Shown: positions 1-22,914 of the stretch, one piece after another
Position numbering within the stretch: position 1 is the stretch's first letter
Layout: every line of letters begins with the position of its first letter
DNA from: Streptomyces sp. NBC_01571
Lineage (GTDB): Bacteria; Actinomycetota; Actinomycetes; Streptomycetales; Streptomycetaceae
Reading direction: 5' to 3'
Assembly (NCBI RefSeq): GCF_026339875.1
Contig: NZ_JAPEPZ010000002.1
Coordinates: 1 to 64,000, forward strand
DNA: 64,000 nt
Notes under the pieces: generated by a model
The model's input: only the letters and a program-made list of their open reading frames with translations
Told to the model about the DNA's origin: nothing
Databases searched by the model: none
Program-made: the position numbers and the translations under genes

Positions 1-1210
1 CCGGGCCGTCCCCCGTGTCACCCGCCGGGTCCGCCGTCCGGGCGCTCTCCCGCACAGCGATGCCCAGCGCCTCCAGTCCGGCCCCCGCCACCAGGCCCGC
101 CCCCGGGCCGTCCGGACCGGGGGCGGCGGCCGGCGCCGGCTGCCGAGTGATCTGCGGCGGCGGCCCGGTGCGCGTCCCGTGCGGATCGGCGGCCGGGGCG
201 GTCAGGCCGGCCGCAGCCAGCGCCCGGCCGACCAGCCGGGCGTGGTGCGGTACGGCTCCCAGGCGGCCCGGGTGACCGGCCGCGCCGGCGCGGATCACCG
301 CGTACACGCGGTCCCCGGCGGCACGGGCCGCGGCCAGCGGCTTGAGCAGCACGACCACCACTCCCCCGCCACCGTCCCCGACACCACCACCCCCACCATC
401 GGCATCGACACCGGCATCCGTGCCCGCACCGGTGTCGGTGTGGGTGCCGGTGTCAATGTGGGTGCCGGTGCGGGGCGGCCGAGGTGCCGGACGCGGTGGC
501 AGCTCGACGGCGCCGGCCAGCGCCGCCTCGCACTCCCCCGCGCGCAGCGCGCCGAGTGCGAGGTGCAGCGCGGTGAGGAAGGAGGACGCGCCGGTGTCGA
601 CGCTCAGGCTGGGCCCGCGCAGGTCGAGCAGCCGCGACAGCCGCCCGGCCGGTCCGGGCCCGCCCGGCGTGTCCCCGCCCGGCGCGTTGTCTGCCGGGCC
701 GGCGGCGAGGTAGACACCGACGCTGCGCCCTGCGTGGTCGGGGCCGGTGAGCCGGTCGGTCCGTACTCCGGCGTATCCGGCGCTCTCCAGGGTCTGCCAC
801 GCGCTGCGCGCCAGCAGGCGTTCACGGGAGTCCAGGACGGCCGCGCCGGCGGTGTCGAGGCCGAACAGGGCGAGCAGGCCGGCGTCGAACTCCCGGATGC
901 CGTCCGCGAATCGGTCCCCTCCCCGCGGGGACGATGCCGTGGGGGTGTGCTGTTCCAGGGCGTGGCGCCAGAAGGCGTCCAGGTCGTCGGCGTGCGGGAA
1001 ACAGCCCTGCATTCCCACGACGGCGCACGGCTCGGCGCCGCCGGCACCGGGGCCGGCCGGTGGTTCACGCTCCGCCGCGGGCCGCACCGCGGGGCCGGGC
1101 CGCGGCGGTGCTCCGGCCGGCGATGCGGCGCCGCGCAGCAGGGCCACGGCGTGCTCGCGCTGCAGGGTGCCGCCTTTGAACCGCGTCAGGATCTCGCGGG
1201 TGTCCGTCAC
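1..1210 (-). CDS. Ketosynthase-like PKS protein without the active-site cysteine (partial)
   Basis: The first 403 residues are visible and the 3' end lies beyond base 1. The GTG start has GAAGGG about 9 bases upstream and follows the tandem ACP stop by 15 bases, so the two are co-transcribed. A 30-residue docking-like leader precedes a type I beta-ketoacyl synthase fold: AVVGMQGCFPHADDLDAFW near residue 63, DSRERLLARSAWQTLESAGY, GPSLSVDTGASSFLTALHLA (199-218), LLKPLAAARAAGDRVYAVIR, and a short DPHGTRTG matching the HGT motif. The normal nucleophile motif DTACSS reads DTGASS, so residue 208 is Ala instead of Cys. The segment that normally carries CxAFD is a Thr/Asp/Gly repeat, and no NIGH motif follows HGT. 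It cannot condense acyl chains by the classical mechanism. It may be a decarboxylating, scaffolding or decaying KS; further PKS domains may follow to the left. Confidence 0.8.
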   Translation of the reverse strand, partial: MTDTREILTRFKGGTLQREHAVALLRGAASPAGAPPRPGPAVRPAAEREPPAGPGAGGAEPCAVVGMQGCFPHADDLDAFWRHALEQHTPTASSPRGGDRFADGIREFDAGLLALFGLDTAGAAVLDSRERLLARSAWQTLESAGYAGVRTDRLTGPDHAGRSVGVYLAAGPADNAPGGDTPGGPGPAGRLSRLLDLRGPSLSVDTGASSFLTALHLALGALRAGECEAALAGAVELPPRPAPRPPRTGTHIDTGTHTDTGAGTDAGVDADGGGGGVGDGGGGVVVVLLKPLAAARAAGDRVYAVIRAGAAGHPGRLGAVPHHARLVGRALAAAGLTAPAADPHGTRTGPPPQITRQPAPAAAPGPDGPGAGLVAGAGLEALGIAVRESARTADPAGDTGDGP

Positions 1211-1225
1211 CGTGTGCCCTTCGTG

Positions 1226-2038
1226 TCAGGCGGAACGGGCCGCCAGCAGGGCAGCCGCCTCGTCGATGCTGAGCACCTCGTCGCGCACCGCGTCCAGCAG
1301 GGCGTTCAGGTCGATCTCCACGGCCCGCGGCGGCTGCGCGGGGGCGGGGCCGGACGCGGGTGCGGGTGCGGAGCCGGACGCGGGTGCGGGGCCGGTGGTG
1401 CGGGTGTCCGTCACCTGCGCGGTGACGTGTGCGGCCATGGCCGCGAGGTCGGGGTGGTCGTAGAGCAGGTCGGTCTGCTCGCTGAGGCCGTAGGTGCGGT
1501 TGATGCCGGCCAGGAACTCCGCGGCCAGGATGGAGTCCAGTCCCAGCGCGGCGAACGGCGCGCTCACGTCGATGTCCTGCGCGGCGCAGTGCAGGATCCC
1601 GGCGAGCTGCGTGCGCAGGGTGTCGGTGACGGTGTCCGGCCCCGCGACGGGCCACGGGCCGGCACCGCGCACCGCAGCCGCAGCCTGAGACGGGGCCTGG
1701 ACCGGGTCGGGCTGCCCGTCACCGTGCCGCGGGGCGGGGCCGGTGCGCGGCAGGGGCCCGGGCGCGGCGAGTTCGGCCGCGACGTGCCGGGCCAGTGCCT
1801 CCGGGGTGGGGTGGTCGTACAGCGCGGTGGCCGCAATCTGGGTGCCGTAACGGGCGTTGAGCGCCGCGACGAACTCGAGGGACAGCATCGAGTCCAGGCC
1901 CAGCAGCCGGAAGGACTCCTGCGTGTCGAGGGACTGCGGCTCGACCCGCATCATGCCCGCCAGTACCGCGGTGAGCTCGGCGAGCACGTCGGCCGCCGGC
2001 GTCGGCGAGGCCGTGTGCGGATGAGGGGCGGAGGTCAT
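1226..2038 (-). CDS. Stand-alone tandem acyl carrier protein (two ACP domains)
   Basis: This 270-residue protein is two carrier domains joined by an Ala/Pro linker. Domain 1 (about 15-90) has the phosphopantetheine site GLDSM with Ser50; domain 2 (about 135-210) has GLDSI with Ser169. Both have the usual Leu-Gly-Leu-Asp-Ser-x-x helix II entry and a YDHP motif after it, so both should be loadable. The last 30 residues (VEIDLNALLDAVRDEVLSID and onward) form an acidic amphipathic tail like a docking element, and the next protein begins with a matching leader. The ATG start was chosen because it has GGAG 10 bases upstream; the frame is open further up but composition there is not coding. Tandem ACPs raise flux in polyunsaturated fatty acid and some trans-AT PKS systems (family knowledge). 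The phosphopantetheinyl transferase at 10.7 kb is the obvious activator. Confidence 0.88.
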   Translation of the reverse strand: MTSAPHPHTASPTPAADVLAELTAVLAGMMRVEPQSLDTQESFRLLGLDSMLSLEFVAALNARYGTQIAATALYDHPTPEALARHVAAELAAPGPLPRTGPAPRHGDGQPDPVQAPSQAAAAVRGAGPWPVAGPDTVTDTLRTQLAGILHCAAQDIDVSAPFAALGLDSILAAEFLAGINRTYGLSEQTDLLYDHPDLAAMAAHVTAQVTDTRTTGPAPASGSAPAPASGPAPAQPPRAVEIDLNALLDAVRDEVLSIDEAAALLAARSA

Positions 2039-2690
2039 GGTGGGCGTCTCCAAGGGTCGGATCCCGGGTGGCCGTCCTGGCATTGTGGGCGCCGCCGCCA
2101 CCGCGCCACATCCCCGGCCGTGGTGATCCCGCCGAAGGCGACTGGCTCCCGGGAACCAGCCGGCGCCCAAACCCTCCGCCCAAAGAATGAGCCGCCCGCC
2201 CACCTGCCTGCCCCTGCCCGCCCACGGCAGCCGCAACGGCGGCTGCCGGCCCGCGCGCCGGTCTCCCGGCGGGCATGGGCTGCGTGCGGCGCCCGCCGGG
2301 CCCGTCCGGCAGGCGACCCGCGGTCCGGGCAGGGGAGTCGCGCCACTGGTCCCGTGGCGCCGGGGGTGCCGTCCATCCGGCCCGCGGATACGGCGCGTTC
2401 AGCCGCTTCCCGCATCCGCGGGCAGCCCGCGCACCACCCGCACCACCCACCCCGTCCGTCCGCACCATCCGCTCCGTCCGTCCGCACCATCCGGCCCGTC
2501 CGCACCGCTCGGACGGTCGGTGCGGCCGGACGGTCGGGGCGGCCCGAGGTGCCCGAGGTGCCCGAGGTGCCCGAGGTGCCCGAGGTGCCCGGGCGGCCCG
2601 AGGTGCCGAACCGCCTTGCAGTCCGGCGCAGTTGCTGCCGGCCGCCCGCACGGCGGTGGCCCGTGCCGCCGCCGCGTGGGCGGTGCGGGT
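2039..2690. promoter_or_regulatory. Intergenic region before the ACP-KS operon, with palindrome and 9-bp repeats
   Basis: No gene is supported here. At 2143-2158 lies the near-perfect palindrome TGGCTCCCGGGAACCA, about 105 bases before the ACP start. Beside it CGCCCAAA occurs twice, 13 bases apart (2162-2186), a direct repeat that could serve a SARP. Around 2545-2613 the 9-bp unit gcccgaggt is repeated five or six times in tandem. Long open frames through here on both strands are a by-product of GC-rich composition. Confidence 0.4.
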
Positions 2691-3515
2691 TCAGCGGGCC
2701 CGTGCGGGCGCGGGGGGTCCCGCGCCGTCGAACGGTGCGGGCGCCGCCGCCGTCTCCGGCGCCGCCGTCTGGATGGAGTGCTGCAGCCGCCGCAGCCGCG
2801 GCGAGGGCTCCAGGCCCAGGTCGTTGACGAGGGTGGCGCGCAGCTGGTGGTAGACGCTGAGCGACTCGCTGCGCCGGCCGGAGCGGTGCAGGGCCAGCAT
2901 GAACTGCGCGTGCAGGTTCTCGTGGGTGCGGTAACGGCTGGTCAGCACGGTCAGTTCGGGCAGCAGTTCACGGTGGCGGCCCAGCCGCAGATCGGCCTCG
3001 ATGCGCTGGTCCAGCGCGCACAGCCGGCTCTCCTCCAGCCGCCGGGTCTCCATCGCCAGCTGCGCCCCGGCCTGCACGTCGGCGAACGCGGCCCCCGTCC
3101 ACAGCCGCAGCGCCCCGGCCAGGGTGCGGGCCGCCTCGGCGAAGGCCCCCTGGTCCATGGCCCGGTAGCCCTCCCCCGCGAGCCGCTCGAACTCGCGCAC
3201 GTCGCTGCTGCCGCCGCCGGAGACGAGCAGATAGCCGCCCGGCAGGGTCATCAGGACGTCCTTGGCGCCGCTGCGGCCGTGCTCGAGCGCCTGCGCGATG
3301 AGCTCGCGCAGCTGCAGCACGTACGTCTGCAGGGTGGTACGGGCGCTGCGCGGCGGGGAGTTGCCCCACAGTTCCTCGATGAGGGCCGCGACGGGCACCA
3401 CCTGGTCGGCACGGAGCGCGAGCAGCGCCAGGACCTGCCGCGGTTTCGGCGCCGTCGGGGTGATGGACACCCCGTTCTCCCGCACTGCCAGTGCGCCCAG
3501 TACGTCGATGTCCAC
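2691..3515 (-). CDS. SARP-family pathway activator 1
   Basis: A 274-residue Streptomyces antibiotic regulatory protein: an OmpR-type winged helix (about 1-95, MDIDVLGALAVRENG, then PKPRQVLALLALRADQVVP and LQTYVLQLRELI) followed by a bacterial transcriptional activator domain (about 100-245, with EESRLCALDQRIEADLRLGR and LYHQLRATLVNDLGLEPSP-type sequence). The length is typical of small SARPs without an ATPase domain. The GTG start has GGGGAG 7 bases upstream, and the same leader (GGGGAGACGGC-GTG) precedes SARP 3, so the two are paralogues by recent duplication or share selection. A sigma-70 promoter with ARE-like operators lies 40-90 bases upstream, so it is a direct target of the butyrolactone receptors. 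SARPs recruit RNA polymerase to direct repeats before biosynthetic genes (family knowledge). Confident on family, not on target genes. Confidence 0.93.
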   Translation of the reverse strand: MDIDVLGALAVRENGVSITPTAPKPRQVLALLALRADQVVPVAALIEELWGNSPPRSARTTLQTYVLQLRELIAQALEHGRSGAKDVLMTLPGGYLLVSGGGSSDVREFERLAGEGYRAMDQGAFAEAARTLAGALRLWTGAAFADVQAGAQLAMETRRLEESRLCALDQRIEADLRLGRHRELLPELTVLTSRYRTHENLHAQFMLALHRSGRRSESLSVYHQLRATLVNDLGLEPSPRLRRLQHSIQTAAPETAAAPAPFDGAGPPAPARAR

Positions 3516-3553
3516 GCCGTCTCCCCTGCTCGGTGTCCCGTGCCGCACCCCCG

Positions 3554-3608
3554 ATTACAAAACAGCGCATCCGGTCTGTCAATACCCGACCGGTCGTGCT
3601 GTTTTAAT
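3554..3608 (-). promoter_or_regulatory. SARP 1 promoter with overlapping ARE-like operators
   Basis: On the minus strand TTGACA (3577-3582), a 17-base spacer and TGTAAT (3554-3559) form a strong sigma-70-type promoter with a leader of about 32 bases. Upstream of and within it are two ARE-like boxes: AAAACAGCACGACCGGTCGG before the -35, and GACCGGATGCGCTGTTTTGT across the spacer and -10. The same arrangement, base for base in spacing, precedes SARP 3. Receptors of the ArpA/ScbR family bind such boxes and block RNA polymerase. Confidence 0.78.
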
Positions 3609-3927
3609 GGGGGTGGGGGAGGCTGTCCGTCCGCGGCCCGTGCGCCGCCGGGGAGGGGCGGCTGCCAGGCGTCCTGCGCAACTCCGGTCCGGTTCCGGCC
3701 TGTTCCGGCCCGCTCCGGTGGGGCGGGGAGCGGCGGGGCGGGACCGGTCGGCGTCCCGCAAAGCAGACCGTGGGGTCTGCTCCTGGTGCGGAATGCCGGG
3801 CGGAAAGCGGAGCGGCGGGGAGTGCGGGGGGCGGGAAGTGCAGGGGCGCGGGGGCGGGTGCGGTGCGGGCGGGTGCCGTGGCGGTGCGGGGCGGTGCGGG
3901 CGGGTGCGCCGTGGCCGGTCCGCGGGG
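3609..3927. other. Intergenic, no gene seen
   Basis: About 320 GC-rich bases between the SARP 1 promoter and the carboxylase stop. It is mostly runs of gcggtgcgggcgggtgc-type sequence. No convincing hairpin terminator or coding frame was found. Confidence 0.5.
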
Positions 3928-5520
3928 TTACTGCGGGGGGTTGCCGTGTTTGCGGGAGGGCAGGTCGGCGTGTTTGGCGTGCAGCATCGCCAGCGCGCGG
4001 ATGAGGACCTCGCGGGTCTCGGCGGGGTCGATGACGTCGTCGACCAGGCCGCGCTCCGCCGCGTAGTAGGGGTGCATGAGTTCCGCCTTGTACTCCTTGA
4101 CCATGCGGGCGCGCATGGCCTCGGGGTCGGCGGCGTCGGCGATCTGGCGGCGGAAGATGACGTTGGCGGCGCCCTCGGCGCCCATCACGGCGATCTCGTT
4201 GGTGGGCCACGCGTACGTGAGGTCCGCGCCGATGGACTGGGAGTCCATCACGATGTAGGCACCGCCGTACGCCTTGCGCAGGATCAGCGAGATCCTCGGC
4301 ACCGTCGCGTTGCAGTACGCGTACAGGAGTTTCGCGCCGTGCCGGATGATCCCGCCGTGCTCCTGGTCCACGCCGGGCAGGAAGCCGGGCACGTCCAGCA
4401 GGGTGAGGATGGGGATGTTGAAGGCGTCGCACAGCTGCACGAACCGGGCGGCTTTTTCGGAGGCTTCGATGTCCAGGACGCCGGCGAGGGTCTGCGGCTG
4501 GTTGGCGACGATGCCCACCACCTGGCCGTCCAGGCGGGCCAGCGCGCAGATGATGTTGCGGGCCCAGCGTTCGTGGACCTCGAGGTAGTCGCCGTCGTCG
4601 ACGAGTTCCTCGATGACCTTCGTCATGTCGTAGGGCCGGTTGCCGTCCGCGGGCACCAGGTCGAGGAGGATCTCGCCGCGCCGGCCGGCCGGGTCGTGGG
4701 CGGTGGTGTGCGGGGGGTTCTCGCGGTTGTTCTGCGGGAGCATCGACAGGAGGTAGCGGACCTCGGCGAGGCAGGTCTCCTCGTCGTCGTAGGCGAAGTG
4801 GGCCACGCCGCTGGTCTCGGCGTGCACGTCGGCGCCGCCGAGCCCGTTCTGGCTGATCTCCTCGCCGGTGACGGCCTTGACCACGTCCGGGCCGGTGATG
4901 AACATCTGCGAGGTCTCACGGACCATGAACACGAAGTCGGTCAGGGCCGGCGAGTAGGCCGCGCCGCCCGCGCACGGGCCGAGCATCACCGAGATCTGCG
5001 GGATGACGCCGGAGGCCTTGGTGTTGCGCTGGAAGATGCCGCCGTAGCCGGCCAGCGCGGAGACGCCCTCCTGGATCCGGGCGCCCGCGCCGTCGTTGAG
5101 GGAGACCAGCGGCGCCCCGGCCGCGATGGCCATGTCCATGATCTTGTGGATCTTCGTGGCGTGCGCCTCGCCGAGCGCGCCGCCGAAGATACGGAAGTCG
5201 TGGGCGTAGACGAAGACCGTACGGCCCTCCACCGTGCCCCAGCCGGTGATCACACCGTCCGTGTACGGCTTCTTGGCCTCCAGGCCGAAGCCGGTCGCCC
5301 GGTGCCGGCGCAGCTGCTCGACCTCCTGGAAACTGTTCTCGTCCAGCAGCAGGGCGATGCGTTCCCGGGCGGTCAGCTTGCCCTTGGCGTGCTGGGCGGC
5401 GGTCGCCTTCTCGCTGGGGCCCAGCCGGGCCGCCTCACGGATCGCGTGCAGTTCCGCCACGCGTCCGCGGATGTCGGTCGGCCCCGGCTCGACGGGGGCG
5501 GGGGCAGTGGTCATTGCCAT
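3928..5520 (-). CDS. accB: Acyl-CoA carboxylase beta (carboxyltransferase) subunit, AccB type
   Basis: A 530-residue biotin-dependent carboxyltransferase. It moves CO2 from biotin on an alpha subunit to acetyl- or propionyl-CoA, giving malonyl- or methylmalonyl-CoA for polyketide extension. Both crotonase-fold halves are complete. The oxyanion glycines are seen in GPCAGGAAYSPALTDF (N half) and RKAYGGAYIVMDS (C half). The residue after GGAY is Ile; in S. coelicolor, Asp at this place marks PccB (propionyl only) and Ile marks AccB, which also takes acetyl-CoA, so this enzyme probably makes malonyl-CoA. The sequence looks like housekeeping AccB to the end (HADLPSRKHGNPPQ). ATG was chosen for AAAGGGA 7 bases before it. 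It follows the epsilon gene by 29 bases. No alpha subunit is in the window, so the chromosomal AccA2 type would be borrowed. Confidence 0.95.
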   Translation of the reverse strand: MAMTTAPAPVEPGPTDIRGRVAELHAIREAARLGPSEKATAAQHAKGKLTARERIALLLDENSFQEVEQLRRHRATGFGLEAKKPYTDGVITGWGTVEGRTVFVYAHDFRIFGGALGEAHATKIHKIMDMAIAAGAPLVSLNDGAGARIQEGVSALAGYGGIFQRNTKASGVIPQISVMLGPCAGGAAYSPALTDFVFMVRETSQMFITGPDVVKAVTGEEISQNGLGGADVHAETSGVAHFAYDDEETCLAEVRYLLSMLPQNNRENPPHTTAHDPAGRRGEILLDLVPADGNRPYDMTKVIEELVDDGDYLEVHERWARNIICALARLDGQVVGIVANQPQTLAGVLDIEASEKAARFVQLCDAFNIPILTLLDVPGFLPGVDQEHGGIIRHGAKLLYAYCNATVPRISLILRKAYGGAYIVMDSQSIGADLTYAWPTNEIAVMGAEGAANVIFRRQIADAADPEAMRARMVKEYKAELMHPYYAAERGLVDDVIDPAETREVLIRALAMLHAKHADLPSRKHGNPPQ

Positions 5521-5549
5521 GTCAGATCCCTTTCTGGGCGAGGTCCGTA

Positions 5550-5747
5550 TCACTGCCAGCCGCGCGGGCCGCGGTAGGCCCGGGGCCTCCTCCACCAGCG
5601 GGAGCCGTTGACCGGCCTGCCCCGGCGGGCGGGTGCGCCGCCCGCGCTGAGCGCGAGCAGCACCACGGTGAGTGCGGCCAGTTCCTCTTCGCCGGCCCGC
5701 CCGCGTTCCACGCGCAGGACGGGCTCGTACTGGTTCGGGGTGCCCAT
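5550..5747 (-). CDS. accE: Acyl-CoA carboxylase epsilon subunit
   Basis: A 65-residue protein with the epsilon-subunit signature: an N-terminal PVLRVERGRAGEEELAALTVVLLAL helix that docks on the beta subunit, then a basic, tryptophan-rich tail ending in GPRGWQ. In Streptomyces such subunits raise beta-subunit activity and are encoded next to it, as here. The ATG is preceded by a long purine run (GGAGGAGGGAGGAGGT), a strong ribosome site. Transcription should start in the 655-base region shared with SARP 2, making epsilon-beta the first operon read in this direction. Confidence 0.9.
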   Translation of the reverse strand: MGTPNQYEPVLRVERGRAGEEELAALTVVLLALSAGGAPARRGRPVNGSRWWRRPRAYRGPRGWQ

Positions 5748-6402
5748 ACCTCCTCCCTCCTCCTCCTTCTTCTTCAGCCTTGGGGGACACCATCGGTCAC
5801 CGCGCTCAAGAACCGCTCTCACTGCGCTTGAAGAGCGCTCCACGCCGCCGCCCGCGACCACAGGACGGCCCGGCACACCCGCGCCGCGGGGCCGCGGCGG
5901 CCGGACACGGCCCGCACGCAGCAGCACAGGCCGGGACGGGACGGCCGGGGCGGGGCGGGGCGGGGCGGGGGGAAACGCTTCGGCCAGTTGCCGTGGGTGC
6001 GGGGCGGGCGGGAGGTGTCCGGCGGGGCGGGCCGGGAGCGCGGGGGCGGGGCGTGCGCTCCGGTGCGCGGCGGGTGCGGGGCGGGGCGCGGACGTGATGT
6101 CTTGACGGCGCCCGCGGCGGTGATTACGGATGCCGCCGGCAGCGGCGCGGGCGCGTGGAAATGGCCGACGGTAACCGTCTGGAGTGCGGCGACGGCGGAA
6201 TCAGGAGTTCGATTCGAGCCGCGCTGCAAGCGTCCTCCAGCGCCCCGGACAGCGGGCGTGACACCGGACTTGGAAGTCCGCTCGAGAACGGCTCCAGGAA
6301 ATCGCTGGGGAGGGACGGCCGCGGCTAGCGTGAGCGGCGGCGCGGATTTCTGGCCACAAAAAGGAACGGGACAAGGAGCTCGACGACATACGGAGGAGAC
6401 CG
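5748..6402. promoter_or_regulatory. Divergent promoter region between accE and SARP 2
   Basis: No gene here. Toward accE, TTCAAGCG and TTGAGCG on the minus strand (5795-5835) lie about 22 bases apart on the same helical face, a pattern used by SARPs; this is a weak, eye-level call. Toward SARP 2, TTGACG (6102-6107), 17 bases, TACGGA (6125-6130) is a possible promoter with a leader of about 270 bases. Unlike the other regulators no ARE-like box is visible, so SARP 2 may be under SARP 1/3 rather than the receptors. A G-rich run (ggggcggggcggggcgggg) sits at about 5949-5968. Confidence 0.4.
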
Positions 6403-7224
6403 GTGAGGATTCAGGTTCTGGGTCCGTTGAGTGCCGAGGTCAACGGGGGATCCATCGTTCCGAGCGCGGGCAAGCCGCGGCAGATCCTGTCGCTGCTGGC
6501 GTTGTATCCCGGACGGGTGATGCCCGTCCCGACCCTCATGGAGGAGATCTGGGCGACGCAGCCCCCGCAGAGCGCACTGACGACCCTGCAGACCTACATC
6601 CTGCAGCTGCGCCGGCGGCTGGGCACCGCGATGGGGCCCGGCGCGCCGGGCGGCGCCAAGGAGGTACTGGCCACCCGGCACGGCGGCTACCTGCTGCAGA
6701 TCCCGCCCGACAGCGTCGACGTGCACCAGTACGACCGGCTGACACGGGAGGGACAGACCGCGTTCGAGAGCGGCGACGACGAGGTCTCCGCCGCCCGCTT
6801 CCGCGAGGCCCTGGGACTGTGGGAGGGACCCGCCCTGGTCGACGTACGCCTGGGGCCGGTCCTGGAGATCGAGGTGGTCCGGCTGGAGGAGAGCCGGCTG
6901 GTCACCGTGGAGCGGCGCATCGACGCCGACCTGCGGCTGGGCCGGCACGCCGAACTCATCGCCGAACTCATCGAACTGACCGCCCGTCACCCCCAGCACG
7001 AGGGGCTGCACTCGCAGGCCATGGTGGCGCTCTACCGCTCCGGCCGGCAGGCCTCCGCCCTGGAGGTCTACCGCAGACTGCGGGTCCGGCTGATCGAGGA
7101 CCTGGGCGTGGAACCCTCCCCCCAGCTGCAACGGCTGCACCAGGCCGTCCTCACCGTCGACCCCCAGCTGGACGTACTGGCCGGACCGCGCCACAGCTCC
7201 ACCTACGACCTGTTCACGGCCTGA
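6403..7224 (+). CDS. SARP-family pathway activator 2
   Basis: A 273-residue SARP with the winged helix at about 1-95 (MRIQVLGPLSAEVNGGSIVP, GKPRQILSLLALYPGRVMPV, LTTLQTYILQLRRRLG) and the activator domain at about 105-245 (EESRLVTVERRIDADLRLGR, LYRSGRQASALEVYRRLR, LGVEPSPQLQRLH). GTG start, with GGAGGAG 5 bases upstream. It is the only forward gene among the biosynthetic genes. It is clearly more distant from SARPs 1 and 3 than they are from each other, and it lacks their ARE promoter module, which fits a different tier in the cascade. Confidence 0.93.
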   Translation: MRIQVLGPLSAEVNGGSIVPSAGKPRQILSLLALYPGRVMPVPTLMEEIWATQPPQSALTTLQTYILQLRRRLGTAMGPGAPGGAKEVLATRHGGYLLQIPPDSVDVHQYDRLTREGQTAFESGDDEVSAARFREALGLWEGPALVDVRLGPVLEIEVVRLEESRLVTVERRIDADLRLGRHAELIAELIELTARHPQHEGLHSQAMVALYRSGRQASALEVYRRLRVRLIEDLGVEPSPQLQRLHQAVLTVDPQLDVLAGPRHSSTYDLFTA

Positions 7225-8085
7225 GCCCGAGCCCGAGCCGAACCCGCGAGCAGGAGGGGCGAAAGCGGGAACGGGAGCGTGGACGGAGGCGGAGGCGGGG
7301 GACGGGCGACACGGCCGCCGCCGGGCAGCCTGCGGCCCCCGACCGGCCGGTGACAGCACGACAGGAAACCGGCCCGGGCCCGCCACCCCCGCCCCTGACC
7401 CCGGCCCCGGCCCCGGCCCCGGCGCTGGTTCGGCACCGGGTCTGGGCGGGGCGCGGGGGGCCGCCTGCATTTCCGCCCGCCACGGGCCGGGGGCCGCGCG
7501 GGGCGCGGGGCGCGGGGGCCGCGTGACTTCCCCGCCCGGTCCCGGCTCGGCCCGATGCCGGGCGGTGCCGGGACCGGGCGGTGCCGGCACCGGGCCGTTT
7601 TGGGCGCGTGCGGATGCCCCGCGGAACCGGCGCGCTCTCCCCGGCCCTTCAACTCCTCGACGGGAACGGGGTACGGGCGCATCCGTGCCGTGCGGGTCCG
7701 CCCACGGTCCCCGAACCTGCCGCAACGGCGGCGGGCAACGACGGCAGGGACGGTCCGCCCCGGCGGTGTCCCGGCAGCGCCGCGCAGCGGTGGCCGCCGG
7801 GACACCGCCGTCCGCGCCCCGCCCGGCCCGCCCGGCCCGCCCGGGGCGGCCGGGCGCGAACACACCGCCGCAGCCCCCTCCTTCACGGCCCCCTCCTTCG
7901 CGGCCCCCTCCTTCGCGGCCCCCTCCTTCGCGGGCCCCCTGCTTCGTGGACCCCGCTGCTTCGCGCGGGCGGCGGGGCCGCTGGTGCGCCCGCCCGGGCA
8001 ACGCCCTGCCCCCGCCCCGGCAGCGCCCTGCGCTCACCGGACTTGCGCGCGACGCCGGCCCGGGGCCGGGTTCAAAAGGGCGGAG
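7225..8085. repeat. Non-coding GC-rich stretch with 15-bp tandem repeats
   Basis: About 860 bases with no supportable gene between two convergent genes. From about 7868 to 7940 the 15-bp unit ccctccttcgcggcc is repeated four or five times with drift at both ends. No clear terminator is visible. Long frames on both strands carry only Pro/Arg/Gly/Ala-rich low-complexity sequence. Confidence 0.6.
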
Positions 8086-8156
8086 TTCAGGGGGGCAGGG
8101 TTCAGGGGGCGGGGTTCAGGGGGCGGGGTTCAGGGGGCGGGGTTCAGGGGGCGGGG
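8086..8156. repeat. 14-bp tandem repeat overlapping a stop codon
   Basis: Four exact copies of ttcagggggcgggg start at 8101, 8115, 8129 and 8143, with a degenerate copy before them. Read on the minus strand the unit is CCCCGCCCCCTGAA. Because 14 is not a multiple of 3, successive copies are read in different frames, and the condensation-like gene ends on the TGA inside one of them. Confidence 0.9.
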
Positions 8157-10383
8157 TGAGGACGGCGCGGACGCCGCGGGCGAGGGCGGACGCGCTGGCG
8201 GCGGCATCGCCGATGCCGGTCATGACCACGGCCGGAGCGGGGCCGGCGGCATACGGCATGTGCTGGGCGAGTTCGTAGGCCGCCCGCCCGCCGGGCCCGC
8301 ACCCGCACAGCACCAGCCGCCGGCCCGGCCCCCGGGCCTGGTGCAGTACGGCCTGCGGGGCGCCGGGGGCACCGTCGGCGTGCACGGCCACGATCTTCTC
8401 CGGGCCCCGGTGGCCGCGGACGAACAGGTCGTAACCGCCCCTGGGCACACCGGGGACGACGACCAGGCAGATCACGTCCGCGTGGGGGTGTCCGGGCCGC
8501 AGCACGCTCAGCGCGGGACGCGGCGGGGGCGGGGCGGGGCGGGCCATGCGCGGGACCGCGGCCCGGGCCAGCACGTCCAGCAGCTGCCCGGCGGTGGCCG
8601 CGGCATCCCGGTGTCCGGGCAGCGCGCCCAGCAGACGCACGCACTGGGCGTGCAGGGCGGCGGCGTCCTCGTCGGCCAGGCGCGCCCGGTCATAGACGGC
8701 AGTGAGGGCCAGACCGCCCCCGGTGTCGTGGCGGGCGGTGAGGGTCAGGGGCCGGCCGGTGGCGCCGGCCGCGGTGCGCGGGCTCTGCACGTCGATGCCC
8801 TGGGCGGCGAGTTCACCGCGCAGCGCCTGCGGCAGCAGGAGCGGGCCCTCGAACCGCACCAGGGTGTCGGCGCAGGGGTCGGTGAACGTGTCGGCGAACA
8901 GACCCGACCCCGCCCCCGACCCCGACACCGACGCAGACACGGACCCGGACACGGCTGGGGGCGGGGAGGGTGGTCTGCCGCTCCACGCGCGGATCGACTC
9001 GGCGCCGGCCCACGGATAGGCGGCCAGGTCCAGGAGTGTGTCGCGGACCTGGTGCAGCAGGTTGGTGAGGGGTTCGTCGGGGTCGACGGTCACGGTCATC
9101 GGCAGCGGCCCGTCCAGCGGGCCGGGGATGCCCGCGGCGCCCGGCAGGGCGATGTCCCGGCCGGACAGCTGCACCCCGAAACTCACCGGCAGCGGACCTT
9201 GCGCGTCCGCCGCCCGGTACAGCAGCAGCGCCCACACCAGGTGCAGGGCGCTGCTCTCCGCCACGCCGCGCAGGGCCGCCCAGGAACGCAGCCGGAAGGT
9301 CTGGGCCGCCCGCAGCCGGGTGTGCAGGAGTCCGGGCCCGTGCTGCCCGGTTTCCCCGCCCGCCCGGCCCGGACGGGTCGCGGCGTGCCGCGGCGGCGCG
9401 GCCCGCGCCCACAACTGCCGTGCGGCGTCGGTGTTCTGGCCGGCCAGCCAGCGGGCGTGATCACGCAGGTCGGGGCGGCGTTCCCCGCCGGGCAGCACAC
9501 CGCCCGCGGCGTAGGCGCGGTAGAACTCCCGCAGCAGCAGGTGCACGCCCCGCTCGTCCAGCAGCGCCGGGTGGTAGGTCAGCAGCACCCGCGGGGGCGG
9601 GGCCGGCACCGCGGCCGAGGACGCCCCCCGCAGCAGGGCCAGGCGCAGCAGGCCGGGCCGGTGCAGTGCAAAACCCCGCGCCCGGTCGCGCCGCAGAAGC
9701 CGCGCCCAGGTGACGGCGGTACGGGAGTGGACGGCGATGTCGGCATCGGCGCGGGCGTGCAGCACCAGACGCGGTGAGGCGACCCAGTCGAAACAGGCCC
9801 GCAGCACCGACTCCCGGTCCACGACCGACTGCCACGCCGCGGCGAACCGGGCCACGTCCAGCGGCCCGGACCAGTCCCAGTACAACTGCTCCAGCTGACC
9901 GTCCCCGCCACCCGCGCCGCCCGTACCGTCCCCGCCGCCGGTGCTGTCCCAACCGTCCGTACCGCCGGTGCTGTCCGTGCCGTTGGCGGGGCCGGTGTGA
10001 TCAATGTGGTCGGTGTGGTCGGTGGCGCCGGCGGGGGCGAGGGCCGCGATCAGCAGGGTCTGCTGGTGTCCGGTGACCGGGAGGACCTCACCGCCCGGCG
10101 GGGGCGGGGCCAGCACGTCGGCCAGCAGTTCCGCGGGCAGCGGGACGGGGCCCGGCGCGCCGGCGGGCGGGGTCAGGCGCAGGGTGTGACGGCCGGGCCG
10201 GTGACTGTCCAGCGCGACGTCGAAGGCACGGTGGCGCTGCGCGAGGCGGGCGGCGACGCTCTCCGCGTCGGCCGGGCCCAGCGGGCCGCACAGTTCCAGC
10301 ACGAGCGGGCCCCCCGGCGGGGGCGTACCCGGCTCGTGGACCACGGCAAGAACGGCGCCCCGCGGCGCGTACCGGCTGCTCAT
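8116..10383 (-). CDS. Condensation-domain plus thioesterase-like protein, catalytic residues replaced
   Basis: A 755-residue protein; ATG with GGGAGGG directly upstream. Residues 1-95 are an unassigned N-terminus. About 105-610 align with an NRPS condensation domain: LPVTGHQQTLLIAAL, LEQLYWDWSGPLDVARFAAAW, RESVLRACFDW, then LHLVWALLLYRAADAQGPLPVSFGVQLSGRD. The HHxxxDG site reads HPALLDE, so the second (catalytic) His is Pro and Gly is Glu. The last 130 residues resemble a truncated type II thioesterase, but GxSxG reads GCGPG (LVLCGCGPGGRAAYELAQ), losing the serine. An Asp/Gly/Thr repeat (about 140-165) interrupts the domain start. Neither half should work by the known chemistry; a binding, partner-recruiting or decaying role is possible. 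It is last in the aromatase-dehydrogenase-PPTase group, after a 339-base gap. Confidence 0.72.
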   Translation of the reverse strand: MSSRYAPRGAVLAVVHEPGTPPPGGPLVLELCGPLGPADAESVAARLAQRHRAFDVALDSHRPGRHTLRLTPPAGAPGPVPLPAELLADVLAPPPPGGEVLPVTGHQQTLLIAALAPAGATDHTDHIDHTGPANGTDSTGGTDGWDSTGGGDGTGGAGGGDGQLEQLYWDWSGPLDVARFAAAWQSVVDRESVLRACFDWVASPRLVLHARADADIAVHSRTAVTWARLLRRDRARGFALHRPGLLRLALLRGASSAAVPAPPPRVLLTYHPALLDERGVHLLLREFYRAYAAGGVLPGGERRPDLRDHARWLAGQNTDAARQLWARAAPPRHAATRPGRAGGETGQHGPGLLHTRLRAAQTFRLRSWAALRGVAESSALHLVWALLLYRAADAQGPLPVSFGVQLSGRDIALPGAAGIPGPLDGPLPMTVTVDPDEPLTNLLHQVRDTLLDLAAYPWAGAESIRAWSGRPPSPPPAVSGSVSASVSGSGAGSGLFADTFTDPCADTLVRFEGPLLLPQALRGELAAQGIDVQSPRTAAGATGRPLTLTARHDTGGGLALTAVYDRARLADEDAAALHAQCVRLLGALPGHRDAAATAGQLLDVLARAAVPRMARPAPPPPRPALSVLRPGHPHADVICLVVVPGVPRGGYDLFVRGHRGPEKIVAVHADGAPGAPQAVLHQARGPGRRLVLCGCGPGGRAAYELAQHMPYAAGPAPAVVMTGIGDAAASASALARGVRAVLTPPPEPRPLNPAP

Positions 10384-10722
10384 CCGCCCTCCCGCGAACC
10401 AGGGACCACACCCGCGGCACACCAGCGGACCGGCCCCCCGCTCCCCCTACCGCACCCACCGCACCGGCCAGACCGGCCGGACCGGCCCCGCGCAGCCAAC
10501 ACACCCGGCACACCCGGCAGTACCGGCTGGGCGGGCAGTAACGGCTGGGCGGGCCGAAGGGATCGTGGGGACAGGCGGGATCGTGGTGCCCGGCCGGTAT
10601 CCGGCCGGGCGGCGGCGAAAGCTGCCGCCCGGCCTGCCGCCGGCGGCACGGGGCCGCGCGGGGGCGGGCGGGGCGGTGTGCGGTGGGGTGGCTGCACGGT
10701 GGTTCACGACGCCCGCCTCTCG
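10384..10722. other. Intergenic, imperfect repeats only
   Basis: About 340 bases between the PPTase stop and the condensation-like start. It holds imperfect gaccggccgg- and cggcacacccgg-type repeats around 10470-10560. No gene. A promoter for the downstream gene may lie here but no clear -35/-10 pair was seen. Confidence 0.4.
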
Positions 10723-11826
10723 TCATGTCGGCTGTGCGCCGGAGCTGCCCGGCAGCGGCCAGCCTAGCGTCGCCGCAGGTGGGAGGCCTGTTTCCTCGAG
10801 CGGGTGTGGAGCGGGCCGCGAAGGGGTCTCGACCGGGAACAGCGGATGGTGGGCGGCACTGACCAGATAGCGGCCGTGGACGAGGTGGGTGGCGAGAATC
10901 CACCGCGGCGCGCCGGCCGGTTCGTCGGCCAGGACCGTACGGCCCTGCTCGTCGCGGCTGAAGCCGAACGCGGCGAAACGGCGCCGCATGCCGTGCCCGA
11001 GTGCCTTGGTGTAGGCCTCCTTGAGCGTCCACAGGTGCAGCAGCCGCGCCGTGCGGTCGTCCTCGGGCAGCGCGGCGAGTTCGGCGGCCTCGGCGGGGGT
11101 GCACACGTAGGGGTGCAGCAGCTCGAAGGACGGCCGGCGGGTGACGGGCTCGGCGTCCACCCCGATCGGCCCGGTGCGGCTGACGGCGACCACGATCAGC
11201 TCGTCGGTGTGGGCCAGGCTCACCTCGGTGCCGGCCAGGCCGCGCAGATGGGGGCGGCCGCCGGGCCGGTAGGCCAGGTCGAGGGCGTCCGCGGGCAGTT
11301 GCAGGGCGGCGGCCGCGGTGTGTTTGAGGACCATCCGCGAGGCGGCGAAACGCAGCCGGCCGGCCGGCGCGGCCGTCTGCCGGTAGCGCGGCCAGTCACG
11401 GCCGAGCAGGCCCCGCAGTCCCGGATCCAGCAGCGCGGCCGCCAGCCACTGCCCCCAGGTGGTGTGCACCAGGACGTGACCGCGGCCGGTGAGCTGGTCA
11501 TGGACCTCCTCCCAGGGACCCTCGGGACCCGCCACGTGCAGCGGCGGCCCGAGCAGCCCCCCGCTGCTCCCCCGCCCCTGCCCGCCCCCCGGACCCACCC
11601 GGCCCACCCGGCCCACCAGATCCGCCGGTTCCGCCAGTTCCGCCGGTTCCGGCAGACCCGGGCCGCCCGTACCCGGCCCGCCCGTGCCCGGCCCGTCCGG
11701 GGCGGGGACGTCCGGGGCGGGGACGTCCGGGGCGGGGACGTCCGGGTGGGAGGGGTGCGGGCGGGACGACGGGCGGGGGCGGGCGGGGCCGGTGCTGCCC
11801 GGGGCGGCCGGGCCGTGTCCGTTCAC
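10723..11826 (-). CDS. 4'-phosphopantetheinyl transferase (Sfp/AcpT type)
   Basis: This enzyme moves the phosphopantetheine arm from CoA to the serine of carrier proteins, converting apo-ACP to holo-ACP. The Mg-binding IGVDAEP (Asp and Glu near residue 224) and WTLKEAYTKALG (near 267) are intact, as is RLRFAASRMVLKHTAAAALQ. The 367-residue length exceeds the usual 220-260 because of about 95 N-terminal low-complexity residues (PDVPAPDVPAPDVPAP then Gly/Thr repeats) encoded by a 15-bp minisatellite at 11699-11750. The GTG start overlaps the previous stop in GTGA, so translation is coupled to the dehydrogenase-like gene. An internal start could skip the repeat. Likely clients are the tandem ACPs at 1.2-2.0 kb. 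Confidence 0.88.
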   Translation of the reverse strand: MNGHGPAAPGSTGPARPRPSSRPHPSHPDVPAPDVPAPDVPAPDGPGTGGPGTGGPGLPEPAELAEPADLVGRVGRVGPGGGQGRGSSGGLLGPPLHVAGPEGPWEEVHDQLTGRGHVLVHTTWGQWLAAALLDPGLRGLLGRDWPRYRQTAAPAGRLRFAASRMVLKHTAAAALQLPADALDLAYRPGGRPHLRGLAGTEVSLAHTDELIVVAVSRTGPIGVDAEPVTRRPSFELLHPYVCTPAEAAELAALPEDDRTARLLHLWTLKEAYTKALGHGMRRRFAAFGFSRDEQGRTVLADEPAGAPRWILATHLVHGRYLVSAAHHPLFPVETPSRPAPHPLEETGLPPAATLGWPLPGSSGAQPT

Positions 11827-13457
11827 CACAGCAGCCGGGTCGCGTAGATGTCGCAGTCCACGCCGTGCCGGACCCGGTCGGCGAGTTCCGCCCAGACCTG
11901 TTCGCGCGGGTCGGCGGCCGGGCCGGGCAGCGGCACCCCGAGCCGTTCGGTGATGCCCGACAGTGCCAGCAGCGCCCAGTGCGGGCCGCCCAGGAACAGA
12001 CCGCGCCCGTCGTCGGCCGCCTCCTGGACCCCGAGCACGGCCGCGGCCAGCCACAGCAGCGCCTGACGGTCCGCCAGCGCCCGTACGGCCGGACCGTCAG
12101 GACCGTCCTGGCCCGCCGCGCGGCACGGACGGCGCAGCGCGCGCTGCTCGCTCAGCAGCCGCCGGGCCGCACCGGCCAGCGCGGCACGGTCCGGATCACC
12201 GCCGCCCGCACGGGCGGCAGCACGCAGCAGCCCCGACAGCACCACACCGTCCCCGCCCTGCCCGCCCCCGCCCTGTTTGTCCCCGCCCCGCCCGTCCCTG
12301 TCCTGCCCGTCCCTGTCCCGCTCCTGCCGGTCCTGCCGGTTCGCGGCGGTGACGGCGGGGTCGGAGCCGGGGTGGGGGTCGGAGGCGGAGCCGGGGTGGG
12401 GGTCGGCGAGCCGGAACAGGGCCGGGAGGGCGGTGGGGTGCGGGGGGCGGGGGCTTTCGGCCAGCGCCGGCAGAGCCCGTACCAGGTGGGTCTGCCAGGA
12501 CCCGGCGGCTGCCGCGTCCACGCCGGCCGCCGGGAGGTCACCGGCCAGTTTCGCCAGCATGCGGCCCTCAGGACCGGCGGGCCCGTGGCCGCACTCGGTC
12601 AGCACCAGTTCGAGCTGGGCCAGTACGTCCGCCACTACCGTCGGCACCACGTAGCCGGCCACCGCGGGCAGCAGCGCACCGGACGCGGGACGCATCGGGC
12701 GGCGCAGCGCCACGCTGGTCAGGCTCTCGCAGGCCAGCAGGTCGGCGAAGACGGTGGCGAGCACCGGCCGCCACTGCCGCAGGGCCGGCTCGCTGTGGCA
12801 GCGGCCGGCCACGATCCGCGCGGCCTGGCGCAGCACGGTACCGGTGGCGGCCAGCAGCGCGGCCGGCCCCAGCAGGGCGGCGGGCACCGGGCACGCCCGC
12901 ACGGCCGATGCGCAGGCCTGTCCCAGGGCAACGTCCCGGCGCAGGACCGGCCGCAGGGCACGGACCAGCTGGTCGGCGGCCCGTATCCGGCCAAGGCCCG
13001 CCGCCGCCAGGAGCCCGGCCCGGTCCTCCCCCGCACCACCCGCACCACCCGCACCACCCGCACCACCCGCACCACCCGCACTGCCGGCGGTGCTGCCGGT
13101 GGTGCTGCCGGTGGTGCTGCCGGTGGTGCGGGTGGTGCTGCTGCCGGTGGTGGTGCTGCCGGTGGTGGTGCTGCCGGTGATACGGGTGGTGGTGAGGGCG
13201 GGCAGGCCGTAGGGGTTGGCGGCATCCCGGGGGTCGCCGAGCAGGGCGTCCAGGCGCAGTGCGGCGAGTGCCACCTCCAGGGGCGGGGGCAGTGCGGCAT
13301 AGCGGTGCGCGACGCCCCGGCGGGGCCCGGGTATCACCGCACCACTGCCACTGCCACTGCCACTGCCACTGCCGCTGCCTTGGCCTTGGCCGTGGCCGGG
13401 CCGGGCGGGCGGGAGGCCGGCGGGGACGGTGCGGGGGGCGGGACGGGTGACGGCCAT
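11823..13457 (-). CDS. Acyl-CoA dehydrogenase-like protein without the middle flavin domain
   Basis: A 544-residue protein. ATG was chosen because AGGAGG lies 6 bases upstream. The N-terminal part (LRLDALLGDPRDAANPYGLP, then DQLVRALRPVLRRDVALGQA) and the C-terminal helical part (RCHSEPALRQWRPVLATVFA, VPTVVADVLAQLELVL, MLAKLAGDLPAAGVD) resemble large acyl-CoA dehydrogenase-like proteins of secondary metabolism. From memory of that family, about 170 residues of beta-barrel and FAD/acyl-contact sequence should lie between RRDVALG and the RCHSEP segment; here only some 45 remain. Gly/Ser/Thr inserts from 6-, 9- and 12-bp repeats (13020-13190, 13340-13378) pad the N-terminal half. It probably does not bind FAD normally. 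It sits 22 bases after the aromatase and is coupled to the PPTase. Confidence 0.6.
   Translation of the reverse strand: MAVTRPAPRTVPAGLPPARPGHGQGQGSGSGSGSGSGSGAVIPGPRRGVAHRYAALPPPLEVALAALRLDALLGDPRDAANPYGLPALTTTRITGSTTTGSTTTGSSTTRTTGSTTGSTTGSTAGSAGGAGGAGGAGGAGGAGEDRAGLLAAAGLGRIRAADQLVRALRPVLRRDVALGQACASAVRACPVPAALLGPAALLAATGTVLRQAARIVAGRCHSEPALRQWRPVLATVFADLLACESLTSVALRRPMRPASGALLPAVAGYVVPTVVADVLAQLELVLTECGHGPAGPEGRMLAKLAGDLPAAGVDAAAAGSWQTHLVRALPALAESPRPPHPTALPALFRLADPHPGSASDPHPGSDPAVTAANRQDRQERDRDGQDRDGRGGDKQGGGGQGGDGVVLSGLLRAAARAGGGDPDRAALAGAARRLLSEQRALRRPCRAAGQDGPDGPAVRALADRQALLWLAAAVLGVQEAADDGRGLFLGGPHWALLALSGITERLGVPLPGPAADPREQVWAELADRVRHGVDCDIYATRLLW
13028..13190. repeat. 9-bp and 12-bp minisatellites inside a gene
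   Basis: The 9-bp unit caccacccg is repeated about six times (13035-13080), then ctgccggtggtg-type 12-bp units (13081-13190). Both are multiples of 3, so they lengthen the dehydrogenase-like protein by Gly/Ala and Gly/Ser/Thr blocks without breaking the frame. The same 9-bp unit recurs in the P450 gene at 20.94-20.98 kb. Confidence 0.9.
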
Positions 13458-13479: not shown

Positions 13480-14457
13480 TCATCGCAGACGGCGGACGGT
13501 GCTCTCCGCATGCCACTTGGCCAGGCCCAGTGCCTGTCTGTCGGCCCGGGACAGCCAGCCGTGCACGTACCGGCGGGCCTCCAGGAGGCTGGTGTTCTCG
13601 CCGAGTTCCCGGGCGACGGCGTCCTGCCGGAGCATCGCCCGGTGGGCGGCGACGACCGTCACCCCGGAGGCGTCCGGCAGCAGGGACCACTCGCCGCTGT
13701 GGGCGGCGAGCAGGCGGGGCGTGAGGGTCTCCTTGTAGACGATGCGACCGGCGTGCGGGAAACACAGCCGTACCGCCCGGGTGGTGACGGTCCCTGCGTC
13801 CTCGGCGGCGCAGGTGTCCACCTGCACCACCTGGACGCCCGGCGCGTCCTCGCGCACGCGGGTCCCCTCGACGTGCGGCAGCCGTTCCTGCCAGTCCCCG
13901 ATCCGGTAGAGGAAGTCGTAGACCAGCTCGGCGGGGCCCTCGACACGGATCCGGTCCTCGAAGGACAGCAGCAGCTCGTCGAGTTCCTCCCACCGTTCGG
14001 CCGCCCCGCGGACCTCGCCGAGCCGGCGCCGTACGCCGGCGGCCGCGTCACCGCGCAGGCGGCTGTCGCCCGCGGCGAGCAGCACGGGCAGCACCCGTTC
14101 CTGACGCAGGCTCAGCACGCACCGGGTCTCACCCGCCGGGCGCACCGTCCACACCCCCGAGGTCACCATGCCCGGGCGGGCCTGGTCCTCCTCCTCGAAG
14201 ACGACACTGCGGTCCTGCGGCCGCAGGACCCGCCGGGTGTGCCGGGAGCGGACGTGGCCGCCCGGGGCACCCGCCTCGTCGGCCACCTCCCACACCAGCA
14301 GCCGTTCCCGCACGCCGTCGAAGTCCAGCCGCTCGACGTGCACATGAGAGGGCAGGAACACCGGCCAGCGCACGGCATCGGCCAGCAGGCCGTAGACCAC
14401 ACCGGCCGGAGCGGCCACCTCCACGGCGTCCTCGCCGGCGTGCACGCGCGACGACAT
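13480..14457 (-). CDS. Two-domain polyketide aromatase/cyclase
   Basis: A 325-residue protein of two START/Bet v1-like (SRPBCC) halves, the layout of di-domain aromatase/cyclases that close the first rings of reduced type II polyketides. Half 1 (about 8-150) begins VEVAAPAGVVYGLLADAVRW and half 2 (about 165-310) begins IRVEGPAELVYDFLYRIGDW; both have the PAxVVY/LVYDFL helix entry and the later TRRVLRPQD or VVQVDTCAAEDAGTVTTRAV strands. The second half ends RYVHGWLSRADRQALGLAKW as in this family. ATG with GGAGGAGGGG upstream. It starts the operon aromatase, dehydrogenase-like, PPTase. It implies an aromatic polyketide, so ketosynthase alpha/beta genes would be expected outside the window. Confidence 0.88.
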   Translation of the reverse strand: MSSRVHAGEDAVEVAAPAGVVYGLLADAVRWPVFLPSHVHVERLDFDGVRERLLVWEVADEAGAPGGHVRSRHTRRVLRPQDRSVVFEEEDQARPGMVTSGVWTVRPAGETRCVLSLRQERVLPVLLAAGDSRLRGDAAAGVRRRLGEVRGAAERWEELDELLLSFEDRIRVEGPAELVYDFLYRIGDWQERLPHVEGTRVREDAPGVQVVQVDTCAAEDAGTVTTRAVRLCFPHAGRIVYKETLTPRLLAAHSGEWSLLPDASGVTVVAAHRAMLRQDAVARELGENTSLLEARRYVHGWLSRADRQALGLAKWHAESTVRRLR

Positions 14458-15173: not shown

Positions 15174-16040
15174 TCAGCCGACCGGGGCGGCGAGCCGTCC
15201 GCTCCCGGCGGGGCCCGTACCGGGACCGGCGGACCCGGATCCGGCCGTGGCGGTTGCGGCGGGTGAGCCGTCCGGCCGGGCCATCAGGATGGAACGCTGC
15301 AGCTTGCCCAGGGCCGCCGACGGCTCCAGGCCCAGACCGCGTACCAGGGTGGCCCGCAGCCGCTGGTAGGCGTCCAGGGCCTCGCCCCGCCGCCCGGAGC
15401 GGTACAGGGCCAGCATGTACTGCCCGCACAGGCTCTCGTGGGTGGGATACCGGCTGACCAGCACGGTCAGCTCGGCGAGCAGTTCACGGTGGCGGCCCAG
15501 GCGCAGATCGGCCTCGATGCGCTGGTCCAGCGCGCACAGCCGGCTCTCCTCCAGCCGTTTGACCTGGGTGGCCAGGTGCGGGCCGGCCTGCACGTCGGCC
15601 AGCGGCGGCCCGCTCCACAGCGCGAGCGCGGCCCGCAGGTGCCGGGCCGCCTCGGGGAAGTCCGCCCCGTCCATCGCCCGGTAGCCCAGCCCGGCCAGCC
15701 GCTCGAACTCCCGCACGTCACTGCTGCCCTCACCGCTCTTGAGGAGATAACCGCCCGGCACGGTCAGCAGCACGTCCTTGGCCGTACGGTGCCCGCCCGG
15801 ATCCCTCTCCAGCGCCGCGGTGATCAGCTCACGCAGCTGCAGGATGTACGTCTGCAGGGTGGGCCGTGCACTGCGCGGCGGCTGCGCGCCCCACAGTTCC
15901 TCGCTCAGCATGCCCACCGGCACCATCTGGTCGGCATGCAGCACCAGCAGCGCCAGCACCTGCCGCGGCTTGGGAGCGGTCGGGGTGATCGAGATGCCCT
16001 TCTCCCGCACATCAAGTGTGCCGAGTATGTCGGTGTCCAC
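15174..16040 (-). CDS. SARP-family pathway activator 3
   Basis: A 288-residue SARP very close to SARP 1: winged helix at about 1-98 (DILGTLDVREKGISITPTAP, KPRQVLALLVLHADQMVPVG) and activator domain at about 105-255 (EESRLCALDQRIEADLRLGR, LVSRYPTHESLCGQYMLALY, LVRGLGLEPSAALGKLQ). The GTG start shares the exact GGGGAGACGGC leader of SARP 1. The C-terminus (after about 255) is a Gly/Ala/Ser/Thr tail. Its promoter is some 434 bases upstream, an unusually long leader compared with about 32 bases for SARP 1. Two close SARPs under the same operators could be redundant or act on different promoters. Confidence 0.93.
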   Translation of the reverse strand: MDTDILGTLDVREKGISITPTAPKPRQVLALLVLHADQMVPVGMLSEELWGAQPPRSARPTLQTYILQLRELITAALERDPGGHRTAKDVLLTVPGGYLLKSGEGSSDVREFERLAGLGYRAMDGADFPEAARHLRAALALWSGPPLADVQAGPHLATQVKRLEESRLCALDQRIEADLRLGRHRELLAELTVLVSRYPTHESLCGQYMLALYRSGRRGEALDAYQRLRATLVRGLGLEPSAALGKLQRSILMARPDGSPAATATAGSGSAGPGTGPAGSGRLAAPVG

Positions 16041-18734: not shown

Positions 18735-18763
18735 GAACCCTCCAGTGGTCGTTCCTCACTCCA

Positions 18764-18820: not shown

Positions 18821-18822
18821 CA

Positions 18823-22862: not shown

Positions 22863-22914
22863 ATGACCCTGCACGGTCGATCCCAGCCCATCCAACGGCG
22901 CAACGGAGACACCC

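Follow-up and report, generated by a model that had tools for sequence, protein, structure and literature searches.

Why should a gene cluster retain complete open reading frames for several biosynthetic enzymes from which the catalytic parts have disappeared? The question is raised by the first 64,000 nucleotides (the window, W) of contig C2 (1.05 Mb) in an 11.5 Mb genome of the Streptomyces group, where a ketosynthase-like protein (KS*), a protein with condensation-like and thioesterase-like parts (C-TE*) and a relative of the acyl-CoA dehydrogenases (ACAD*) are encoded among intact genes; the asterisk denotes forms altered at their catalytic parts, including an AMP-ligase (AMP*), C1, C2 and C3 are contigs of this genome, and L0xx and G0xx stand for related loci and genomes. 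The original prediction on this DNA had offered three options, namely adaptors, a new chemistry or decay; selected non-catalytic forms are favoured by the results presented here and decay is disfavoured. In our reading, held with a probability of about 55%, the altered proteins are long-established pseudo-enzymes, common to the related clusters, that selection keeps and that dock on a di-domain acyl carrier protein (di-ACP). Such genes are annotated as polyketide synthase (PKS) or condensation proteins although the catalytic residues are absent; a co-inherited, selected and disarmed set, if real, would provide a clean test of the role of pseudo-enzymes in natural-product pathways and would account for an orphan locus that recurs on the linear plasmids of Streptomyces.

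KS* (2..1210, minus strand) is cut by the contig start, which falls inside the gene, and only its first part had therefore been available to the original prediction; the full copy, encoding 769 aa, lies at C3:259986-262295. The predicted replacement of the catalytic Cys by Ala is indeed present (VDTGASSF, against TDTACSSS in a control KS taken from G001), and in the full-length copy both catalytic His are gone as well, together with about 30 residues between them. The protein is composed of an N-terminal docking-type helix, the KS and a KS-AT linker, with no acyltransferase (AT). Relatives intact at every site were not encountered: in a motif reading of 20 KS-like family proteins (88 plasmid records match, and in 18 the match spans 80% or more of the query), the Cys is found in 0/20, its site being occupied by Ala (4), Pro (3), Glu (2) or Ser (2) in the 11 proteins of the window's branch and by Gln (3), Glu (3), Asp (2) or Asn (1) in the nine outside it; 18 of the 20 have His at neither aligned site, the exceptions being pSGRIFU1 at the second site and L098 at the first, the latter perhaps by alignment chance. 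The di-ACP (1226..2038, minus strand) keeps both DSx serines and ends in a C-terminal docking-type helix. A docking-type helix starts 10 of 11 KS* proteins (the annotated start of L070 lacks it), and a matching helix is present at the C-terminus of 13 of 14 ACPs from loci with altered genes. The genes for the ACP, the KS-like protein and a phosphopantetheinyl transferase (PPTase) lie side by side in each of six further plasmids examined, and KS* has no KS gene directly next to it. Structure prediction from three-row alignments gave models too poor to use (mean pLDDT 32 for KS* and 38 for C-TE*); that of KS* contains two N-terminal helices at pLDDT of about 66-68 and nothing further that is informative.

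ACAD* (11823..13457, minus strand), taken alone, has no NCBIfam match and chance-level Pfam matches only; its identity comes through relatives, since the full-length counterparts in pSGRIFU1 and NBC_01224 score just under the Pfam cut-offs for Acyl-CoA_dh_M and Acyl-CoA_dh_1. The large central deletion noticed beforehand is borne out by this comparison, 6 residues being left in the window's protein against the 138-139 of five full-length relatives. A block of about 130 residues, in the middle domain of the acyl-CoA dehydrogenases, is missing in 17 of 17 ACAD* proteins, which form one side of a branch with support 100/100; two unrelated acyl-CoA dehydrogenases, of L075 and L078, were left out of the second tree. 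At these two loci (L075:11757-16065 and L078:4058-8512) a full-length acyl-CoA dehydrogenase, scbR and a cytochrome P450 gene take the place of afsA, an arrangement resembling the avenolide-type signal system with an acyl-CoA oxidase homologue outlined in the accessible part of PMC12301235.

C-TE* (8116..10383, minus strand) reads YHPALLDERG where G001 has YHHALLDG, and GCGPG in its thioesterase (TE) part, so that the replacements of HHxxxDG by HPALLDE and of the type I thioesterase motif GxSxG by GxGxG (Ser to Gly) were correctly recognised. The window's clade includes 15 of 21 aligned proteins (L077 was left out for a frameshift, and G024 and G027 were not aligned) and is again one side of a branch supported at 100/100. 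Within it all 15 proteins have Gly for the TE Ser, and none has His at the second His position of the condensation (C) domain (Arg 11, Pro 2, one of them the window's, Ser 1, Gln 1); of nine C-TE proteins outside the clade, eight have the TE Ser and four the second His. Both types occur in G003, where a second paralogue with GYSGSG and HRALLDG (G003:C69:54382-56472) shares the locus of the altered one. The typical motif of the clade, HRALLDE, with Asp in 15/15, Glu in place of Gly in 14/15, the first His in 14/15 and Arg in 11/15, might be taken to build a different active site, C-TE* then being a working enzyme of another kind; an active HQxxxDM enzyme and variable roles of the second His are indeed on record in the available text of PMC11546977. 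We consider such a new chemistry rather unlikely, as the window has Pro and not Arg, the Cys of GCGPG is not conserved (Cys in 8 of the 15 and Ala in 7), the KS* replacements vary and ACAD* lacks a whole block. A fifth altered class, the AMP-ligase, is encoded near KS* just outside the window (C3:257169-258923) and has lost its P-loop and the A10 Lys.

The altered states are common to orthologous clusters, where the original prediction had proposed to look for them. At E 1e-10 the C-TE protein has matches in 123 records of a plasmid collection, and in 25 of these the match spans 80% or more of the query; the 13 loci examined out of these 25 (L069-L072, L075-L082 and L086) belong to 12 Streptomyces and one Kitasatospora, and all 13 plasmids are linear. 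A scan of genome contigs with ACAD* yielded three loci, all from Streptomyces, and three matches, this genome included, were obtained among 61 genomes; in a sample of 150 genomes of the genus, 47 have a match, the best match being at least 54% identical in six (this genome included), and the weaker matches in the remaining genomes probably include ordinary acyl-CoA dehydrogenases. The typical order is afsA, scbR, SARP, cyclase, ACAD*, PPTase, C-TE*, carboxylase epsilon and beta, SARP, di-ACP, KS*, PPTase and SARP (SARP, Streptomyces antibiotic regulatory protein), with gains and losses of genes around it across loci. Genes for a P4 primase and a DUF6009 protein adjoin many related loci; no P4 primase was found near the window copy (in the window, C3:180000-285215, C1:40001-80000 and C3:1-20000), the nearest match in this genome being at C1:822290. 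Orthology across these mostly linear-plasmid clusters is thus established, and the altered C-TE and the altered ACAD are each compatible with having arisen once.

The clusters also bear on the order of the losses. In S. atratus and pSGRIFU1 a full-length ACAD and the TE Ser accompany a KS without Cys, and the loss of the KS therefore looks oldest; that of ACAD might have followed and then that of C-TE, the AMP-ligase being perhaps the last and still variable. In L086 the altered C-TE adjoins type II KS, chain-length factor (CLF) and ACP genes, and neither KS* nor ACAD* is present in the stretch examined.

Is the altered set maintained, or is the cluster dying in this lineage by replication slippage, its open frames being merely the survivors so far? 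dN/dS was computed by NG86 in close pairs of relatives, a check suggested beforehand, and is below neutral, which favours selected non-catalytic forms: 0.15, 0.21, 0.21, 0.20, 0.39, 0.33 and 0.27 for C-TE; 0.30, 0.36, 0.39, 0.38, 0.46, 0.43, 0.64 and, in G001/L075a, 0.42 for ACAD*; 0.50, 0.58 and 0.47 for KS* (0.44-0.48 in the core columns alone); 0.18, 0.32 and 0.29 for AMP*. Neutral simulations with GC-biased mutation (12 settings with 15 replicates each, 180 in total) gave means of 1.06-1.54 and minima of 0.74-1.15, with an overall minimum of 0.74, and produced on average 0.4 to 3.8 stops per gene. The catalytic-type pair pSGRIFU1/NBC_01224 has values of 0.54 for C-TE, 0.39 for ACAD and 0.40 for AMP; among the intact neighbours, dN/dS is 0.03-0.07 for the carboxylase, 0.06-0.22 for the SARPs, 0.20-0.26 for the cyclase, 0.13-0.38 for the PPTases, 0.30-0.40 for the di-ACP, 0.13-0.22 for an FAD-monooxygenase and 0.13-0.20 for FabD. 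C-TE, ACAD* and AMP* are therefore constrained about as a PPTase or an ACP is, and KS* less so; both the frame and the sequence of the altered genes are under purifying selection in the relatives. The claim that the frames are open holds equally, as no internal stop occurs in 63 translated family sequences (21 C-TE, 21 ACAD, 12 KS and 9 AMP, catalytic-type relatives included and the L077 C-TE left out). The further claim of good ribosome sites stands in part: by eye, AGGAGG-like sites precede ACAD, CYC and SARP2, and weaker ones KS and ACP2.

For the copy in this genome the evidence comes from protein distances and from tandem repeats. Distances to the L079/L081/L082 group are 1.08 for C-TE, 1.30 for ACAD and 1.35 for KS, within the ranges of other members (0.97-1.29, 1.00-1.46 and 0.98-1.54, respectively); the altered genes of this genome are no faster than those of the relatives. 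Periods divisible by three are found in 16 of 17 arrays inside altered genes, in 25 of 29 in all coding sequence tested and in 23 of 40 outside (Fisher p = 0.0096, all coding against outside), arrays straddling a gene border being left out of the test. Taken together, repeats and distances fit frames held while the repeats grew.

Decay nevertheless has its arguments: repeats fill this copy at 4.68 arrays per kb, the window's P450 gene is split, the AMP-ligase has lost its P-loop and Lys, and the C-TE gene of L077 (Streptomyces sp. HUAS 15-9) is frameshifted at L077:14904-14930, be this real or a sequencing error. The altered states, however, are older than this genome, dN/dS in the relatives is below neutral, the repeats inside genes keep the frame, and neither an excess of rate in this genome nor an internal stop in the translated sequences is seen; decay is accordingly disfavoured and improbable, although not absent. 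Other observations, too, weigh against selected pseudo-enzymes. The constraint on KS* is weak, its dN/dS being the weakest of the altered genes, and the variety of its replacements in the window's branch is what an unconstrained site would show; five loci (L072, L076, L078, L086 and G003) showed no KS*, and four relatives have a truncated AMP*. Activity is possible, moreover, in C domains whose motif departs from the canonical one (PMC11546977). As to this genome, no close relative of its copy was found, and the dN/dS of its long-distance pairs (0.48-0.69) is hard to read through saturation and was not used as proof; periods divisible by three are over-represented among the arrays outside genes as well (23/40, more than 1/3), and some of these arrays fall in unlisted genes, so that the contrast in frame is moderate.

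Under the reading of selected pseudo-enzymes, what we infer is the adaptor role and the product of the altered set. The altered proteins would form a non-catalytic complex on the di-ACP, whose C-terminal helix would pair with the N-terminal helix of KS*, and C-TE* and ACAD* may hold the acyl chain on its carrier, or act as a gate for it, without turnover; the chemistry would be left to working enzymes, for which the cyclase, the carboxylase, the PPTases and a reducing type II PKS at C3:238864-247770 are the candidates here. The latter comprises FabD, ACP, KR, KS and KS, with KS, ACP, KR and FabD motifs intact by eye, and its order FabD, ACP, KR, KS is that found on L070; the stretches of L069, L071, L072, L076 and L078 examined keep the core and lack this PKS, and the core is therefore not simply an accessory of it. 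A bolder proposal, which we put forward only tentatively, is that five enzyme classes were turned into a non-catalytic carrier-protein complex, conserved as a module near the replication genes of Streptomyces linear plasmids and perhaps serving a butyrolactone/SARP circuit, as the sensor or holder of an acyl chain, instead of making a product.

How does the locus compare with known systems? The names and roles of the catalytic residues, as well as the features of CLF and KSQ, are general knowledge; KS* resembles CLF, KSQ and non-elongating KS proteins as a KS relative without Cys, and the Gln of CLF and KSQ can be likened to the Gln, Glu, Asp and Asn of the nine KS-like proteins outside the window's branch. 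KS* differs from them in that both His and an internal stretch are also gone and in its docking-type helix and KS-AT linker, and, unlike CLF, it adjoins the di-ACP and not a KS. The window shares with pSGRIFU1 of S. griseofuscus the core gene set of the pSLA2-L/pSGRIFU1 type, with afsA, scbR, SARPs, cyclase, ACAD, PPTases, C-domain protein, di-ACP and a KS-like protein without Cys (pSGRIFU1 also carries the P4 primase and DUF6009 genes); pSGRIFU1, however, has type II KS/CLF/ACP, a full-length ACAD, the TE Ser and an AT-bearing KS protein, none of which is in the window's core. No type II KS/CLF/ACP was called beside the core in C3:249-285k, the reducing type II PKS mentioned above being a different one. 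The cryptic polyketide cluster of pSLA2-L (S. rochei) is, by the description in the part of PMC8443760 consulted, very similar to that of pSGRIFU1. The open-access literature yielded no account of the disarmed set (subscription papers on pSLA2-L being outside the scope); in the accessible portions, PMC5318452 on foxicin clusters showed no link to the locus, and PMC10132072 and PMC6662830 do not describe it.

The C domain invites a further comparison, with the X-domain of glycopeptide synthetases, likewise a condensation-domain relative in which the second His is changed and the Gly replaced by an acid. By analogy, a dead C domain might be a recruitment platform for the P450 of the cluster, as the X-domain (HRxxxDD) recruits Oxy enzymes; the likeness of the motifs (as given in the part of PMC11546977 seen) would agree with this, as would the P450 of the signal group in 7 of 16 loci with altered-type C-TE (L077 counted), which lies beside afsA in the window copy, L070, L071, L077 and G003 and beside scbR and the full-length acyl-CoA dehydrogenase in L075 and L078. 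In eight of the 16 (L069, L076, L079-L082, L086 and G002), however, the stretch examined contains no P450, and that of L072 is far off; the P450 moreover sits with signal genes, as does the butenolide P450 srrO of S. rochei in the accessible text of PMC7564063. The X-domain is also found inside glycopeptide NRPSs with HRxxxDD, whereas C-TE* is a stand-alone protein with HPxxxDE (HRxxxDE in most relatives). Since under half of the loci have a P450, recruitment is regarded as very unlikely.

The neighbouring genes for PPTases, ACP, carboxylase, cyclase and SARPs look intact in their sequence, as stated beforehand. They include, on the minus strand unless indicated, the acyl-CoA carboxylase beta subunit (3928..5520), Sfp-type PPTase 1 (10723..11541, the start being uncertain and the core given; the motifs are kept in both PPTases), a two-domain polyketide aromatase/cyclase (13480..14457) and SARP regulators at 2691..3515, 6403..7224 (plus strand; 83-84% identical to its L030 and L031 counterparts) and 15174..16040. 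Two TetR regulators, ScbR-type by similarity to relatives (16833..17507 and 18045..18734), the signal-group P450 (20353..21638, like them on the minus strand) and an AfsA/ScbA-type butyrolactone synthase (22915..24033, plus strand) follow. Near the relatives' clusters, NRPS proteins with apparently degenerate A and C motifs, ending by eye in an MbtH-like stretch, are encoded at G003:C69:58402-63435 and G001:C333:63753-67973.

The whole cluster lies in a repeat copy, W:1-24136 (no strand), with the same sequence at C1:16104-40238 and C3:261087-285215; C1 and C2 part ways after W:24136, and the repeat is, most simply, probably the inward portion of the terminal repeat of the chromosome. The three assembly copies differ by four length changes only, at window positions 19702, 20934, 23951 and 24044, all in repeats or homopolymers, among them a 12-bp unit inside afsA and one base in the P450 gene; the latter splits the window's P450 into two ORFs, the gene being a single ORF in C3, with which C1 agrees at the difference. 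Tandem repeats are about 30 times denser in the repeat copy than in the adjacent unique sequence, their density falling at the inner border: W:1-24136 holds 113 arrays (4.68 per kb, 17.1% of bases) and W:24137-64000 six (0.15 per kb), against 0.05-1.12 per kb in 15 related stretches, and outward on C3 the density drops to 1.66 at 240-261 kb, 0.83 at 180-240 kb and none at 1-20 kb. Finally, through the P450 and afsA genes (window 18001-24000) the plus strand is A/C-rich, with GC skew to -0.61 and AT skew to +0.62.

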